NCBI RefSeq assembly: GCF_008086165.1
Contig: NZ_VSKL01000001.1
Location: 1,178,001-1,242,000, forward strand
Reading direction: 5' to 3'
DNA: 64,000 nt
Source of the DNA: Algorimicrobium algoritergicola
GTDB taxonomy: Bacteria > Bacteroidota > Bacteroidia > Flavobacteriales > Flavobacteriaceae
In this document: positions 31,237 through 46,842 of the stretch, in pieces
How positions within the stretch are numbered: position 1 is the first letter of the stretch
Layout: each line of letters starts with the position of its first letter
Program-made: the position numbers and the translations under genes
Notes under the pieces: generated by a model
What the model saw: the letters and a program-made list of their open reading frames with translations, nothing else
The model's database searches: none
What the model was told of the DNA's origin: nothing

Positions 31237-31343
31237 TTTCACTTATTTATGCGTTAAACACTGTGAAAAATTATGTGATTGCTGTGGCCTGCTAGAGTAG
31301 TAGAATTGAACTGCTTTAGCATTTTTTTATGAGGTTGCAATCA
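31237..31343 (-). promoter_or_regulatory. Structured metK leader (candidate cis-regulatory RNA)
   Basis: Read on the minus strand, TGATTGC (31343-31337) pairs perfectly with GCAATCA (31282-31276), closing a 54-base region. Inside, TGCTA (31321-31317) pairs with TAGCA (31294-31290). Single-stranded words AACC, TGCTAAA and TTCTAC recall the SAM-I core but the arrangement is not a standard SAM-I. A further TTTCAC/GTGAAA helix (31268-31263 and 31242-31237) abuts the metK start codon. Confidence 0.45.
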
Positions 31344-31372
31344 GACAAATTTTCCTCTCAATTATTACTGTG

Positions 31373-31461: not shown

Positions 31462-31491
31462 TGCTCACAAAGTTCAAAAACTTACTGAAAT

Positions 31492-31613
31492 GTTATCAAG
31501 AAAGGTGGAGGGATTAGACCCGTTGAAGCCTTAGCAACCCTTAGTTCTATACTATGAAGGTGCTAAATTCTACTTAATTTTCGATTCATTTATCGAAATA
31601 TTGGATAGATAAC
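31492..31613 (+). ncRNA. SAM-I (S-box) riboswitch
   Basis: The P1 helix GTTATC (31492-31497) with GATAAC (31608-31613) closes the aptamer. The conserved core follows in order: ATCAAGAAAGGTGGAGGGA, then G-A-A-G-C-C-T-T-A-G-C-A-A-C-C, then G-A-A-G-G-T-G-C-T-A-A-A-T-T-C-T-A-C, then a P4 hairpin TTTCGAT/ATCGAAA (31579-31598). It precedes metY, as SAM riboswitches do for sulfur genes. In the family, bound SAM switches downstream expression off. Confidence 0.94.
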
Positions 31614-31619
31614 TCAAAC

Positions 31620-41644: not shown

Positions 41645-42538
41645 CTATTTTGTCAATTCCCGGAACAAACTTTCCAAACTCGCATTTTTCTGATTTAATT
41701 GAAGAATTTTCAATTCGTTATCATGAGCAAAATCGAATACATGAGAGCGCATATCTTCTGAAGTAGCAAAGGTGATTTCATAAATAAAATCATGAACATT
41801 CACGACATCTTTTACATGTGGTAATTTCTGTAGAAAAACGGTTTCTACACGATAATCAAATTCCACGATTACTACCTGTTCTTTATCATCGCGTAATTCT
41901 TTCAACGTTTTATTAGCTACAATTTCACCTTTATTGATAATGATAACGCGGTCGCACATGGCTTCCACTTCTTGCATAATATGTGTAGACAAGAATACGG
42001 TTTTTTCTTTACCTAACGATTTAATTAAATTTCGAATATCCACCAATTGGTTTGGATCCAGACCAGTTGTTGGTTCATCTAAAATCAAGACATCCGGATT
42101 GTGTAATAAGGCATTTGCTAAACCCACACGTTGTCTATATCCTTTGGAAAGTTGACCAATTTTTTTATGCACTTCAGGCGTTAATCCTGTTAATTCAATA
42201 ACGTCTTGAATACGCTTTTTATCCACACCATAGACTGATGCATTAAAAGCCAAATATTCCTTCACGTATTGATCTAAATATAGCGGATTGTGTTCCGGTA
42301 AATACCCAACACTTTGCTGAACATTTTGTTTTTCTGAATTAACATCAAAACCATTTACTTTAGCGTCACCTTCAGAGGCTTCAATATAGGTAGTTAAAAT
42401 TTTCATCATGGTAGATTTTCCAGCACCATTTGGGCCTAAAAACCCCACGATTTCAGATTTATTAACTTTAAAAGAAACTTGGTTTAACGCTTTTTGAGAG
42501 CCGTATAATTTGCTGATGTTTTCAACTTCAATAGACAT
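41645..42538 (-). CDS. gldA: Gliding-motility ABC transporter ATP-binding protein GldA
   Basis: A 297-residue ABC ATPase with Walker A G-P-N-G-A-G-K-S-T, Q-loop, the signature L-S-K-G-Y-R-Q-R-V-G-L, Walker B V-L-I-L-D-E-P-T-T-G-L-D and switch His in L-S-T-H-I-M. Length and C-terminal part fit GldA, which with GldF and GldG forms a transporter needed for flavobacterial gliding. Partners are not in the window, so a different ABC-2 exporter ATPase remains possible. I place the start at the ATG at 42538; the longer reading adds an unrelated leader. It is divergent from the aromatic operon. Confidence 0.87.
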   Translation of the reverse strand: MSIEVENISKLYGSQKALNQVSFKVNKSEIVGFLGPNGAGKSTMMKILTTYIEASEGDAKVNGFDVNSEKQNVQQSVGYLPEHNPLYLDQYVKEYLAFNASVYGVDKKRIQDVIELTGLTPEVHKKIGQLSKGYRQRVGLANALLHNPDVLILDEPTTGLDPNQLVDIRNLIKSLGKEKTVFLSTHIMQEVEAMCDRVIIINKGEIVANKTLKELRDDKEQVVIVEFDYRVETVFLQKLPHVKDVVNVHDFIYEITFATSEDMRSHVFDFAHDNELKILQLNQKNASLESLFRELTK

Positions 42539-42628
42539 AAAGTAATTACGTTTTTTCAAAAATAACATATAAATATGAAATGGAACGTACAACGAAAACC
42601 TTATATTCTTAAAATAAATAAAAAAGAT

Positions 42629-42658
42629 TTTGTTTATTCAATTTATTAACTAATTTAG
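42629..42658 (+). promoter_or_regulatory. Promoter of the aromatic operon
   Basis: TTTG (42629-42632), an 18-base spacer and TAATTTAG (42651-42658), one base from TAnnTTTG, put transcription start near 42664. The leader peptide ATG at 42670 would then be almost at the RNA 5' end. Confidence 0.5.
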
Positions 42659-42669
42659 CCTTTCAAATT

Positions 42670-42750
42670 ATGAACACAAGTACGAATAACACATATCACA
42701 ATTGGTATTATTTCTTTTTTAACAAAAGGAACGAGACGCTGTATGTGTAA
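42670..42750 (+). CDS. Aromatic amino acid leader peptide of the pheA operon
   Basis: A 26-codon ORF carries Tyr-His-Asn-Trp-Tyr-Tyr-Phe-Phe-Phe as codons 9-17, and another Tyr at codon 25. This is eight aromatic residues out of 26, clustered as in Phe, Tyr and Trp attenuators. The stop TAA at 42748-42750 is 27 bases before the terminator stem. A ribosome stalled on codons 12-17 (42703-42720) would leave 42732-42737 free; one at the stop codon would cover it. The peptide is too short to be listed by ordinary gene calling. Confidence 0.88.
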   Translation: MNTSTNNTYHNWYYFFFNKRNETLYV

Positions 42751-42785
42751 TTTTTAATCATAAAATTAAACTATTTAAAGTCTCG
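42732..42785 (+). promoter_or_regulatory. Antiterminator helix of the pheA attenuator
   Basis: CGAGAC (42732-42737, inside the leader ORF) is an exact complement of GTCTCG (42780-42785), the 5' half of the terminator stem. Formation of this helix would prevent the terminator, as in classical attenuation. Confidence 0.75.
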
Positions 42786-42810
42786 ATGTAAATCGGGACT
42801 TTTTTTGTTT
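42777..42810 (+). terminator. Attenuator terminator upstream of pheA
   Basis: AGTCTCGAT (42779-42787) and ATCGGGACT (42792-42800) form a nine-pair stem with one G-T pair and a GTAA loop, followed by seven T and GTTT. It lies entirely upstream of pheA, 39 bases from its start codon, so it can only act as an attenuator. Confidence 0.9.
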
Positions 42811-42848
42811 ACACTAGTTTGGTTTTGAAATTTAATAAAGAAAACAAC

Positions 42849-43673
42849 ATGACAAAGGCAGTGGCCATACAAGGAATACAAGGTTCATTTCATCATATTG
42901 TTGCAAAGCAATATTTTGGAGATTCAGTCCTATTATTGGAGTGTTTATCATTCGATGAAGCTGTAAATTCCTTATTAAATAAGGAAACAGATGCGGTTGT
43001 TATGGCGCTTGAAAACTCCATAGCAGGTTCTATTATTCCCAATTATGCGTTAATAGATACGCATGATTTACATATTGTAGGTGAGCAGTATTTGGATATT
43101 CAACACCATTTAATGGCTTTGTCAGGACAAGAAATTCAGGATATTAAAGACGTGTATTCGCATCCTATGGCTTTGTTGCAGTGTAAAGCATTTTTTAAAA
43201 AACATCCACATATAAAGCTGATTGAAGATAAAGATACAGCTGAAGTGGCTCAAAGAATTCAAACGCAGCAATTAAAAGGCGTTGCAGCTATTGCAAGTCA
43301 ATTAGCAGCCGATTTATTCAAGTTAGAAATTTTAGCCAAAAGCATTCAAACCATTCAACATAACGAAACTCGTTTTGTGATTGTGAAACGTGATAATGCA
43401 GACTCTTCAAATGAAGCAACCAACAAAGCGTCTTTAAAATTCGAATTAGAACACAAACGTGGCAGTTTAGCAACTATTTTAAATGTTATGAGCGATTGCC
43501 AATTGAATTTAACCAAAATACAATCGCTTCCAAAAATTGAAACACCTTGGAAGTATGCTTTTTTTGTGGATGTCACTTTTGATACCTACAGCAATTTCCA
43601 AAAAGCACTCTCAATATTAGAAATCATGGCCGAAGACTTCAAAGTTTTAGGTCACTACAAACACGCGAAATAA
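42849..43673 (+). CDS. pheA: Prephenate dehydratase (monofunctional)
   Basis: Converts prephenate to phenylpyruvate for phenylalanine synthesis. The 274 residues from the ATG at 42849 show I-Q-G-I-Q-G-S-F-H-H, the E-N-S-I-A-G-S box near residue 57, the S-H-P-M-A-L-L-Q-C box near residue 102, the catalytic T-R-F-V-I-V near residue 173 and a C-terminal ACT domain with F-E-L-E-H-K-R-G-S-L. The ACT E-S-R-P motif is degenerate (I-Q-S-L-P), so Phe feedback may be altered. Chorismate mutase is supplied by the DAHP synthase fusion. It is the first gene after the attenuator, and its stop overlaps the next start (TAATG). Confidence 0.94.
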   Translation: MTKAVAIQGIQGSFHHIVAKQYFGDSVLLLECLSFDEAVNSLLNKETDAVVMALENSIAGSIIPNYALIDTHDLHIVGEQYLDIQHHLMALSGQEIQDIKDVYSHPMALLQCKAFFKKHPHIKLIEDKDTAEVAQRIQTQQLKGVAAIASQLAADLFKLEILAKSIQTIQHNETRFVIVKRDNADSSNEATNKASLKFELEHKRGSLATILNVMSDCQLNLTKIQSLPKIETPWKYAFFVDVTFDTYSNFQKALSILEIMAEDFKVLGHYKHAK

Positions 43674-44815
43674 TGATTGAATTAGCCAATCGCTTACAAA
43701 CTGTAGAGGAATACTACTTTTCGAAAAAATTACGAGAAGTAGCATTGCTTATGGCAAACGGAAAACCTATAATTAATTTAGGTATTGGAAGTCCGGATTT
43801 AAATCCGCCACAAAAAGTTATAGATGCTTTAACGGAAAGTTTCAAACACCCTAAAGCTAATCAGTATCAAAGATATCAAGGGTTACCAGAATTTCGTGAA
43901 GCCATTGTGTCTTTCTATAGAGATCAGTATGATGTGTATTTAAGTCCTTCCACAGAAGTCCTTCCGTTAATGGGAAGCAAGGAAGGTATTATGCATATTT
44001 CTATGGCATTTTTAAACCCAGGAGATCACGTGTTGATTCCTAATCCAGGTTATCCAACCTATACATCGGTAACTAAATTAGTGGGAGCGGAACCTGTTTT
44101 TTACGATTTAACGGAATCTTCAAATTGGCTTATAGATATTGAGGCGTTGGAAGAACAGGATTTATCTAAAGTAAAAATTATGTGGGTTAATTATCCGCAC
44201 ATGCCAACAGGAACGAATGCAAGTAATGCTTTTTTTACGCGACTTATTGCATTTGCCAAACGGCATAATATTTTAATAATTAATGATAATCCATACAGTT
44301 TTGTTTTAAACAAGGAACCAAAAAGTATGCTTCAAATTGCAGGCGCTAAAGACGTGTGTTTGGAATTAAACTCTTTGAGCAAAACCTTTAATATGTCTGG
44401 TTGGCGCGTAGGTATGGTGCTTGGAAGAGCGGAATATATTAACGCTATTTTAAAGGTGAAAAGTAATATGGATTCTGGCATGTTATTTGGCATTCAGAAA
44501 GCAGCTATTCAAGCTTTAAATTGCTCTAAATTATGGTACGTGAGTTTAAATCAGGTTTATGAAGAGCGACGGCAACTGATCTGGAAATTGGCTGATGCAC
44601 TCAATTGTACCTATAATAAAAATACGAGTGGGATGTTTGTTTGGGCCAAATTACCACCTTATATGAAATCGGAAGAGTTTGTAGATTTATTATTAAAAGA
44701 GAAAAACATTTTTATAGCACCAGGAACCGTTTTTGGAAGTAATGGTGAAGGTTATGTGCGCTTTTCATTATGTGCAAGTACCGAAATAATTGAAGAAGCG
44801 TTAGCTAGAATTTAA
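43673..44815 (+). CDS. Aromatic or aspartate aminotransferase (class I/II)
   Basis: The 380-residue PLP enzyme shows L-G-I-G-S-P-D-L-N-P near residue 37, N-P-G-Y-P-T-Y near residue 123, N-D-N-P-Y-S-F near residue 203 and the PLP lysine in S-L-S-K-T-F-N-M-S-G-W-R-V-G near residue 236. Position between pheA and tyrA, with a one-base overlap to pheA, suggests it aminates phenylpyruvate and 4-hydroxyphenylpyruvate. The exact substrate is inferred from context. Methionine or aspartate aminotransferases are alternatives. Confidence 0.9.
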   Translation: MIELANRLQTVEEYYFSKKLREVALLMANGKPIINLGIGSPDLNPPQKVIDALTESFKHPKANQYQRYQGLPEFREAIVSFYRDQYDVYLSPSTEVLPLMGSKEGIMHISMAFLNPGDHVLIPNPGYPTYTSVTKLVGAEPVFYDLTESSNWLIDIEALEEQDLSKVKIMWVNYPHMPTGTNASNAFFTRLIAFAKRHNILIINDNPYSFVLNKEPKSMLQIAGAKDVCLELNSLSKTFNMSGWRVGMVLGRAEYINAILKVKSNMDSGMLFGIQKAAIQALNCSKLWYVSLNQVYEERRQLIWKLADALNCTYNKNTSGMFVWAKLPPYMKSEEFVDLLLKEKNIFIAPGTVFGSNGEGYVRFSLCASTEIIEEALARI

Positions 44816-44819
44816 TACT

Positions 44820-45671
44820 ATGAAAAACATATATATTATAGGTGTTGGATTAATAGGCGGAAGTATAGCCAAGGATATCAAGCATTTGAATCCTGAAATT
44901 ACCATTTTTGGAATCGATTCCAGTACGGAAAATTTAGATGAAGCGTTAACACTTCAAATAATTGATCAGAAAGCTACATTTAGTGATTTAAAAAATGCTG
45001 ATGCCGTTATTGTCGCCATTCCTGTTGATGCAGCTGTCAATGTATTGCCAGAAGTTTTAAATTTAGTACATGATGATGCGTTGGTTATGGAAGCTGGCTC
45101 AACCAAAGTCGCTATTTGTAAGGCTGTTGAAAACCATCCAAAACGTCGAAATTTTTTAGCAACCCATCCTATTGCTGGAACGGAGTTTTCTGGACCAAAA
45201 GCAGCATTGGAAGGTTTGTTTCAAGGGAAAACAAATATTATTTGCGAAGTAGAGAAAACGGCTTTCAATTTGCAAGAACGTGCATTAACTATTTTTAAAA
45301 TTATGGGTATGCGTATTCGGTATATGAATCCGGAAGCACATGATAAGCACATTGCTTATGTATCTCATTTATCCCATATTAGTGCATTCATGTTAGGGAA
45401 AACGGTTATTGAAAAAGAAAAAAATGAACGCGATATTTTTGATATGGCAGGAAGTGGGTTTGCATCTACAGTGCGATTGGCAAAAAGCTCTCCAGATATG
45501 TGGACACCCATTTTTAAGCAAAATAAAACCAATGTTATAGAAACTTTAGATGAATATATTCAAAACTTAACCACGTTTAAAACGTATTTAGAAACGGATC
45601 GTTTTGAGGAAATTCACAAAGAAATGTCGGATACAAATTACATTAAAGATATATTAAACGGAATACAATAA
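44820..45671 (+). CDS. tyrA: Prephenate dehydrogenase
   Basis: This NAD-dependent enzyme makes 4-hydroxyphenylpyruvate for tyrosine. The Rossmann motif G-V-G-L-I-G-G-S is at the N terminus, the H-P-I-A-G-T-E-F-S-G-P box with the catalytic His is near residue 114, and H-L-S-H-I-S-A-F-M near residue 182. The 283 residues contain no ACT domain. It is the third gene of the aromatic operon, four bases after the aminotransferase gene. Confidence 0.94.
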   Translation: MKNIYIIGVGLIGGSIAKDIKHLNPEITIFGIDSSTENLDEALTLQIIDQKATFSDLKNADAVIVAIPVDAAVNVLPEVLNLVHDDALVMEAGSTKVAICKAVENHPKRRNFLATHPIAGTEFSGPKAALEGLFQGKTNIICEVEKTAFNLQERALTIFKIMGMRIRYMNPEAHDKHIAYVSHLSHISAFMLGKTVIEKEKNERDIFDMAGSGFASTVRLAKSSPDMWTPIFKQNKTNVIETLDEYIQNLTTFKTYLETDRFEEIHKEMSDTNYIKDILNGIQ

Positions 45672-45759: not shown

Positions 45760-46842
45760 ATGGAAAATAAAAAAGAATTAGGAACTTGGTTAAATAACTT
45801 CGGATTAGATCATCCGTTAGTAATTGCTGGACCTTGTAGTGCCGAAACGGAAGAACAAGTTTTAAAAATAGCGCATCAATTAAAAGATACAGATGCAACA
45901 GTTTTAAGAGCTGGAATTTGGAAACCACGGACAAGACCTGGGAATTTTGAAGGTGTTGGTGCTTTAGGATTAAAATGGTTACAAAAAGCTAAAGAAGAAA
46001 CAGGTATGTTGATTGCGACGGAAGTTGCTAACACAAATCACGTGGAATTAGCGTTAAAACATGATGTTGATGTACTTTGGATTGGTGCGCGAACAACAGT
46101 TAGTCCGTTTATTGTTCAAGAAATTGCAGATGCGCTAAAAGGAACGGATAAACCTGTTTTGGTGAAAAACCCTGTGAATCCAGATTTGGCTTTATGGTTA
46201 GGTGCTGTTGAACGTTTCTACACAGCTGATATTAAAAATTTAGGTGTTATACATCGCGGGTTTTCAACCTATGAAAAAACACGTTATAGAAATAATCCAG
46301 AATGGCAATTACCAATCGATTTGCAACATCGTTTTCCAGATTTACCGCTAATTTTAGATCCATCGCATATTGCTGGTCGTCGTGATATTATTTTCGACTT
46401 ATGTCAAACGGCTCTCGATTTAAATTATGATGGTTTAATGGTAGAAACTCATTTTGATCCAGACAATGCGTGGAGTGATGCTGCACAGCAAATTACACCA
46501 GCAACGCTTGTTCAATTTATGGACGATTTGAAGATTAGAAAAGAAACAGGTGAAGCCACCGAATTCAAGAATAAAATCAACACCATGCGAACGCAAATTG
46601 ATGTGATTGACCATCAGTTAATTGATATGTTAGGCAAGCGTATGAAAGTTGCTGATGATATTGGATCGCTTAAAAAAGCACATAATGTAGCCGTTTTGCA
46701 AACCAAACGTTGGAATGAAATATTAGGTAAGATGATTCTCCAAGGTGAAGAAAAGAATCTTAGCGAAGAGTTTATTTTACGTGTTTTTAAAGCCGTTCAT
46801 CAAGAATCCATAAACCATCAGGAAAAAATTATCAAGAAGTAA
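45760..46842 (+). CDS. DAHP synthase fused to chorismate mutase
   Basis: The first 255 residues are a 3-deoxy-7-phosphoheptulonate synthase of the KDO8P-like type: V-I-A-G-P-C-S-A-E-T, K-P-R-T-R-P-G-N-F-E-G, L-W-I-G-A-R-T-T, V-K-N-P-V-N-P-D and D-P-S-H-I-A-G. The last 95 (from M-R-T-Q-I-D-V-I-D) are an AroQ-type chorismate mutase with R-M-K-V-A-D-D-I-G. It catalyses both the entry step and the chorismate branch step. The start at 45760 follows the conserved M-E-N-K. The spacer from tyrA is 88 bases and holds an AAATCC/GGATTT hairpin. Confidence 0.94.
   Translation: MENKKELGTWLNNFGLDHPLVIAGPCSAETEEQVLKIAHQLKDTDATVLRAGIWKPRTRPGNFEGVGALGLKWLQKAKEETGMLIATEVANTNHVELALKHDVDVLWIGARTTVSPFIVQEIADALKGTDKPVLVKNPVNPDLALWLGAVERFYTADIKNLGVIHRGFSTYEKTRYRNNPEWQLPIDLQHRFPDLPLILDPSHIAGRRDIIFDLCQTALDLNYDGLMVETHFDPDNAWSDAAQQITPATLVQFMDDLKIRKETGEATEFKNKINTMRTQIDVIDHQLIDMLGKRMKVADDIGSLKKAHNVAVLQTKRWNEILGKMILQGEEKNLSEEFILRVFKAVHQESINHQEKIIKK

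Follow-up and report, generated by a model that had tools for sequence, protein, structure and literature searches.

One of the closest described counterparts of the leader reported here is the pheL-pheA attenuator of E. coli (Rfam Phe_leader, RF01859), in which an aromatic-rich leader ORF and a terminator precede pheA, and in which segment 2, the strand that competes for the terminator 5' arm, begins 8 nt past the last aromatic codon. The 15-residue pheL peptide uses Phe only, and its stop codon lies one codon past the run. The leader that we describe differs in that it also carries Tyr and Trp, has a nine-codon tail, and stands before an operon that includes tyrA and a DAHP synthase gene.

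This type of mechanism is classical, and it is little described in the bacterial group studied here. A statement in a 2010 survey has leader peptides as previously known only in Proteobacteria and Actinobacteria, with Firmicutes then added (PMC2965389). For the phylum of our organism, the Bacteroid-trp RNA (RF01692) appears in a table of Weinberg 2010 (PMC2864571), and another report likens it to a Trp leader and finds it conserved in Flavobacterium psychrophilum (PMC6414381). Long 5' UTRs of B. thetaiotaomicron are noted to contain short ORFs that resemble leader peptides (PMC7366714). A 2021 transcriptome of F. psychrophilum reports a structured 5' element of pheA, found in other genera too and without an Rfam match, and mentions clues for leader-peptide attenuation ahead of amino-acid operons (PMC9723704). 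That element precedes the same gene in the same family as ours, although the portion of the text on leader-peptide cases does not name it among them. Our literature search did not find the wide spread of such pheA leaders, twin units in series or twin attenuators for the same amino acids; Lopatovskaya et al. 2010 may already list Bacteroidetes cases.

The locus lies in a 64,000-nt stretch of the Algorimicrobium algoritergicola genome (hereafter, the window). Scored against Rfam, its pheA leader reaches 23.4 bits for Phe_leader (RF01859; gathering score 55, E 0.09), and Bacteroid-trp is absent among the 13 matches listed at 42560-42900 up to E 10. As no family attains its gathering score there, we rejected Rfam membership; the leader would work like pheL, yet it falls outside Phe_leader as scored. 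Elsewhere in this genome, the one Bacteroid-trp match (63.5 bits, L160:1521-1583) comprises a leader, MNTILNHTWWWNNRNSKFVN, and a terminator before trpE, the gene for anthranilate synthase component I. This RNA shares with the pheA leader its phylum and its arrangement of leader ORF and terminator, and differs in its tryptophan codons and its trp operon. A His leader ORF, MSFIQFHHHHFHTCTQAG, with a terminator hairpin lies on L161, 361 nt upstream of a hisG domain match. With the phe, trp and his leaders, all three biosynthetic operons inspected thus have leaders of this kind. The first-pass annotation had described leader-peptide attenuation as best known from Proteobacteria, a statement to be qualified by the catalogued Bacteroid-trp RNA and its match in this genome. 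The attenuation type and the structured pheA 5' element are therefore known already, and the wide spread of the leader and its twin units in two families are what we put forward as candidate novelties.

The leader region and the pheA operon

The features of the locus, in window coordinates, are as follows.

41645-42592, minus strand: upstream neighbour, ABC ATPase (ORF list and Pfam)
42629..42658, plus strand: probable promoter, with TTTG at 42629-42632 (-33-like) and TAATTTAG at 42651-42658 (-7-like), from motif statistics in 58 loci
42670..42750, plus strand: leader peptide ORF of 26 codons, MNTSTNNTYHNWYYFFFNKRNETLYV; same peptide, letter for letter, in Bizionia echini (L001)
42690..42696, plus strand: segment 1, CACATAT, 5' strand of the 1:2 helix, pairing with 42741-42747 (93.8% of cells paired in a 38-sequence alignment)
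42694..42720, plus strand: control codons Y9 to F17 (Y H N W Y Y F F F), putative ribosome-stall site
42732..42737, plus strand: segment 2 core, CGAGAC, which lies across codons 21-23 and forms the 5' strand of the antiterminator (paired with 42780-42785 in 99.5% of cells, 38-sequence alignment)
42741..42747, plus strand: segment 2, second part, GTATGTG, 3' strand of the 1:2 helix (38-sequence alignment)
42777..42787, plus strand: segment 3, 5' arm of the terminator, common to the antiterminator (terminator scan and 2:3 duplex)
42792..42806, plus strand: segment 4, 3' arm of the terminator (42792-42802) and T run (42800-42806); 94.9% of helix cells paired
42849..43673, plus strand: pheA, prephenate dehydratase (PDT; PF00800, E 4.9e-56)
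43673..44815, plus strand: class I/II aminotransferase (Aminotran_1_2; PF00155)
44820..45671, plus strand: tyrA, prephenate dehydrogenase (PDH_N/PDH_C; PF02153, PF20463)
45760..46842, plus strand: DAHP synthase fused to chorismate mutase (DAHP_synth_1 + CM_2; PF00793, PF01817); ATG 45760 was chosen as start, and the ORF list has TTG 45733

The leader ORF is present as the first-pass annotation had read it, with Y9 H10 N11 W12 Y13 Y14 F15 F16 F17 and an additional Y25, and the claimed operon content (pheA, aminotransferase, tyrA, DAHP synthase-chorismate mutase) is matched by Pfam. The hairpin at 42777-42802, AAAGTCTCGAT-GTAA-ATCGGGACTTT, is closed by the T run 42800-42806. The claimed terminator and its seven T thus stand, with the correction that the stem has 11 pairs, including one G.U, and not nine. 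CGAGAC at 42732-42737 is, as also claimed, the exact complement of GTCTCG at 42780-42785, and folding 42664-42848, a check proposed in that annotation, gives a structure that contains the terminator, at a minimum free energy of -34 kcal/mol (z -2.58). By sequence, then, an intrinsic terminator is present between leader and pheA. Since the upstream neighbour is on the minus strand, this plus-strand hairpin does not terminate the transcript of another gene. Elsewhere in the window, a SAM-II riboswitch (31306-31363, minus strand) and a SAM (S box) riboswitch (31490-31615, plus strand) are divergent neighbours 126 nt apart.

Of the 58 loci, 51 have the motif TAnnTTwG at most 40 nt upstream of the leader ATG, and 47 of these 51 also have TTG some 15-24 nt upstream of the motif; among control tiles, the motif count is 8 of 167. 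By the promoter consensus and its usual distance to the transcription start, we take TAnnTTwG with its TTG to be a probable promoter. The motif ends 8-26 nt before the leader ATG across loci and 11 nt before it in the window, from which we judge that the leader 5' UTR probably measures only a few nt and is near-leaderless. Four Shine-Dalgarno-like motifs were sought before the leader ATG and found in 0 of 58 loci. The first-pass annotation had spoken of an almost leaderless start in a phylum with few Shine-Dalgarno sequences; here the near-leaderless start is read from the promoter-like element.

The Phe-Phe-Phe triplet (42712-42720 in the window) is spelled TTC-TTT-TTT in 39 of its 42 occurrences among the 58 leaders, which are related sequences and not independent, and the longest T run in these leaders is 5.84 versus 7.54 expected. 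In 12 genes of the window, 43 of 195 Phe codons are TTC. The spelling may keep long T tracts out of the leader.

Distribution among relatives and twin units

We counted a strict unit where an ORF of 10-45 codons with at least six Phe, Tyr or Trp among nine successive codons was followed by a terminator beginning within 110 nt of the stop, and where the stretch after the last aromatic codon paired with the terminator 5' arm at -8.5 kcal/mol or better. E. coli pheL, used as a yardstick, passes (gap 8 nt, duplex -16.0 kcal/mol). Applied to both strands of the window, the detector reports one of 254 tiles, which is the pheA leader itself.

A PheA search of genome contigs yielded 60 named loci, the closest being Bizionia echini with 88% identity. 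Conservation of the aromatic codons, on which the first-pass annotation had made its reading depend, is evident here: an aromatic-rich leader ORF is found in 59 of the 60, starting with ATG in 58 and with TTG in one (L056), and the single exception (L005) sits at a contig edge with only 150 nt upstream of the gene. With the window included, strict units occur in 56 of 61 named loci; the detector misses L005, L017, L018, L041 and L057, four of which have the ORF but fall short of a threshold. Although its contig is labelled Saprospiraceae, L041 has a PheA 65% identical to that of the window and a leader resembling flavobacterial ones; the contig is possibly mis-binned.

A sample of 198 genomes across the phylum contained PheA in 171 (E 1e-20 or better). 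Strict units were present in 18 of 18 upstream regions from the family of the window and in 16 of 23 from the same class outside the order, where four more had the ORF alone; the one examined of two genomes from the same order had no unit. In other classes the figure was 4 of 27 examined, with about 100 other-class genomes outside the count. A second, class-wide sample that overlaps the first had the PDT domain in 39 of 149 genomes; among the 38 examined, 15 of which were already counted in the phylum sample or are the window itself, a strict unit was present in 19, only the ORF in 6, and neither of the two in 13. L125 and L171 (duplicates of L088 and L095), G429 (a partial hit), G095 and L159 (60-base filler) were left out, and L005, L170 and L174 are cut by contig ends.

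In two families, two successive aromatic leader ORFs precede pheA. This holds for 16 of the 37 PheA-bearing genomes in the family of G037 and, in the family of G166, for 8 of 37 examined (46 with PheA). Including L057, whose record is labelled Saprospiraceae, the two-ORF loci number 25, and in 21 of these each ORF comes with a terminator of its own and with 2:3 pairing at a relaxed threshold. At the strict threshold both units are found in 11 of 29 loci of the G037 family and 2 of 28 of the G166 family. Across the window's family sets, with 61 named loci (the window among them) and 18 sampled ones, 0 of 79 have two strict units. Twin loci include L057, L087, L112, L114, L115, L117, L173, L176, L180, L184, L185, L188 and L189. 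A described parallel is the Salmonella mgtCBR leader, with two leader ORFs in one leader RNA ahead of one operon (PMC3641672). Its signals, however, are different ones (ATP and proline), and a passage of that report calls it a singular example of tandem attenuators with different signals, whereas both members of a pheA twin carry Phe/Tyr runs. We think it likely, with some room for doubt, that Phe/Tyr(/Trp) leader attenuation is common for pheA in the class and that these two families have complete twin attenuators in series.

Predicted antiterminator pairing and the spacing of the aromatic codons

The 2:3 duplex was found in all 58 loci with ORF and terminator, a set not chosen on pairing, and in 57 of them at p<0.05 versus shuffles. 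For further comparisons we drew 55 representatives, less than 70% similar to one another, from units already above the pairing threshold. Their mean duplex energy is -13.8 kcal/mol, versus -9.0 when segment 3 is permuted among units and -9.9 when it is permuted within GC strata; 0 of 5000 permutations reach the own duplex in either case. The own duplex has p<0.05 against shuffles of the same stretch in 47 of 55 units and exceeds that of the reversed sequence in 51, while the own segment 3 ranks within the best 10% for its unit in only 36. Each of the first eight 2:3 positions shows four to six pair types. The pairing strands accordingly change together between clades, with CGAGAC/GTCTCG in the clade of the window, GGGATT/AATCCC in Flavobacterium, CGGGAC/GTCCCG in Poritiphilus and GGGGCT/AGCCCC elsewhere.

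Within the window's clade, the 2:3 core of the 38-sequence alignment is 99.5% paired and its covariation is no better than in column shuffles; the 1:2 and 3:4 helices, nearly invariant, are only slightly above column shuffles. We rejected within-clade covariation as an argument because divergence is too low, and the covariation argument rests on the distant clades for the same reason. Covariation of the competing helices, which the first-pass annotation had asked of relatives, is thus seen as compensatory change between distant clades and not inside the clade of the window. In 45 of 55 units, segment 2 has more upstream pairing than shuffles do; in the no-ribosome fold of the window, CGAGAC is unpaired with segment 1.

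Segment 2 begins a median of 11 nt past the final base of the last aromatic codon in the 55 units, and this gap has a standard deviation of 3.0, versus 10.7 in shuffled sequence. The position of the stop codon varies more (sd 8.1 nt), from one codon (Oceanihabitans, L009) to eleven codons past the aromatic run, and, relative to the first base of the stop, segment 2 begins anywhere from 25 nt upstream to 9 nt downstream. By E. coli toeprints, a ribosome with the last aromatic codon in its A site reaches about 10 nt further, which together with the median gap places segment 2 about at the ribosome edge. From the range of segment 2 starts it follows that a terminating ribosome would cover segment 2 wholly, or partly in the earliest cases.

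Folding the RNA freed 10 nt past the last aromatic codon gives 2:3 in 54 of 55 units, but the same fold yields it in 326 of 550 shuffles. The terminator folds in all 55 units when a ribosome is placed at the stop, and in 52 of them without any ribosome. In equilibrium folding of the complete RNA, the mean terminator probability is 0.82 in the stalled state and 0.92 at the stop; stalling lowers it clearly in only 15 of 55 units, and in the window it is 0.96 in both states. Equilibrium folding was therefore rejected as proof of switching, the finished terminator winning either way, and the choice must be kinetic, made while segment 4 is still being transcribed. In classical attenuators the choice is likewise made during transcription.

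In the proposed mechanism, RNA polymerase would make a short leader RNA, and a ribosome would start on its 26-codon ORF immediately. At low levels of charged Phe, Tyr or Trp tRNA, this ribosome would stall at codons 9-17 with its 3' edge just short of CGAGAC; the free CGAGAC could then pair with GTCTCG before segment 4 is finished, so that no terminator forms and the operon is read. With charged tRNAs available, the ribosome would reach the stop and cover segment 2, 3:4 would pair, and transcription would end at the T run. The terminator would form in the absence of translation too. The stalling, the co-transcriptional competition and the response to tRNA charging are what we infer. The attenuator interpretation put forward in the first-pass annotation is supported by the conserved leader ORFs, the 2:3 pairing and the compensatory change between distant clades, and on this sequence evidence we consider it very probable that the leader controls the pheA-aminotransferase-tyrA-DAHP synthase/chorismate mutase operon by ribosome-mediated transcription attenuation.

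Alternative readings and implications

The locus could instead contain a constitutive or protein-controlled premature terminator, the aromatic ORF being a by-product of a T-rich leader. The genome is indeed AT-rich, and TTT and TAT codons are common (152 TTT and 116 TAT in 12 genes of the window), but the strict detector returned no unit from 186 reverse-complemented upstream regions, 558 dinucleotide shuffles or 423 other tiles of the loci, and the aromatic codons stand at a fixed distance from segment 2. All 55 representative leaders contain Phe and Tyr, and 18 contain Trp. The fraction of Phe and Tyr codons with a wobble C rises with local GC (rho 0.46, p 0.0004, n 55), from a mean of 0.24 below 35% GC (n 24) to 0.45 above 45% GC (n 12). 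GC-rich relatives thus retain Phe and Tyr with more TTC and TAC codons, which argues that amino acids and not bases are conserved in the leaders. We regard the by-product account as very unlikely.

An account in which the peptide itself has a function, whether as a small protein or by acting in trans, with RNA structure as secondary, seems to us just as improbable. The trans-acting leader peptide peTrpL of S. meliloti, as described in part of one report (PMC7298713), offers a precedent, and the peptide of Bizionia echini is identical to ours. Over the wider set, however, length, ends and stop position vary (the last with the sd of 8.1 nt given above) while RNA pairing and aromatic content persist. 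In the early-stop leaders L007 and L024, moreover, the tail corresponding to the ETLYV codons of the window is largely retained as untranslated RNA, and TATGTA is kept past an earlier stop codon, untranslated, in L024, L026, L027 and L007. That the leader acts mainly on translation, through re-initiation or coupling at pheA, we consider extremely improbable: re-initiation at short leader ORFs has been proposed, in a passage that gives a Bacteroidetes peak of 11-14 bp between leader stop and gene start (PMC4833913), whereas here 98 nt with an intrinsic terminator inside separate the leader stop from the pheA start.

Transcription attenuation by a translating ribosome, the reading we prefer, would give the aromatic branch a defined attenuator open to experiment, in a phylum that makes little use of Shine-Dalgarno sequences. 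If the 5' UTR is as short as it probably is, ribosome loading on a nearly leaderless RNA would have to match the pace of the polymerase, and the fixed spacing between codons and segment 2 would act as a ruler for the leading edge of the ribosome. A sharpened response by tandem elements was proposed earlier for tandem riboswitches. Twin switches for the same signal, if they are real, would multiply two read-through probabilities and sharpen the response, and the twin units in relatives may offer a route to measuring what is gained from a second attenuator with the same signal.
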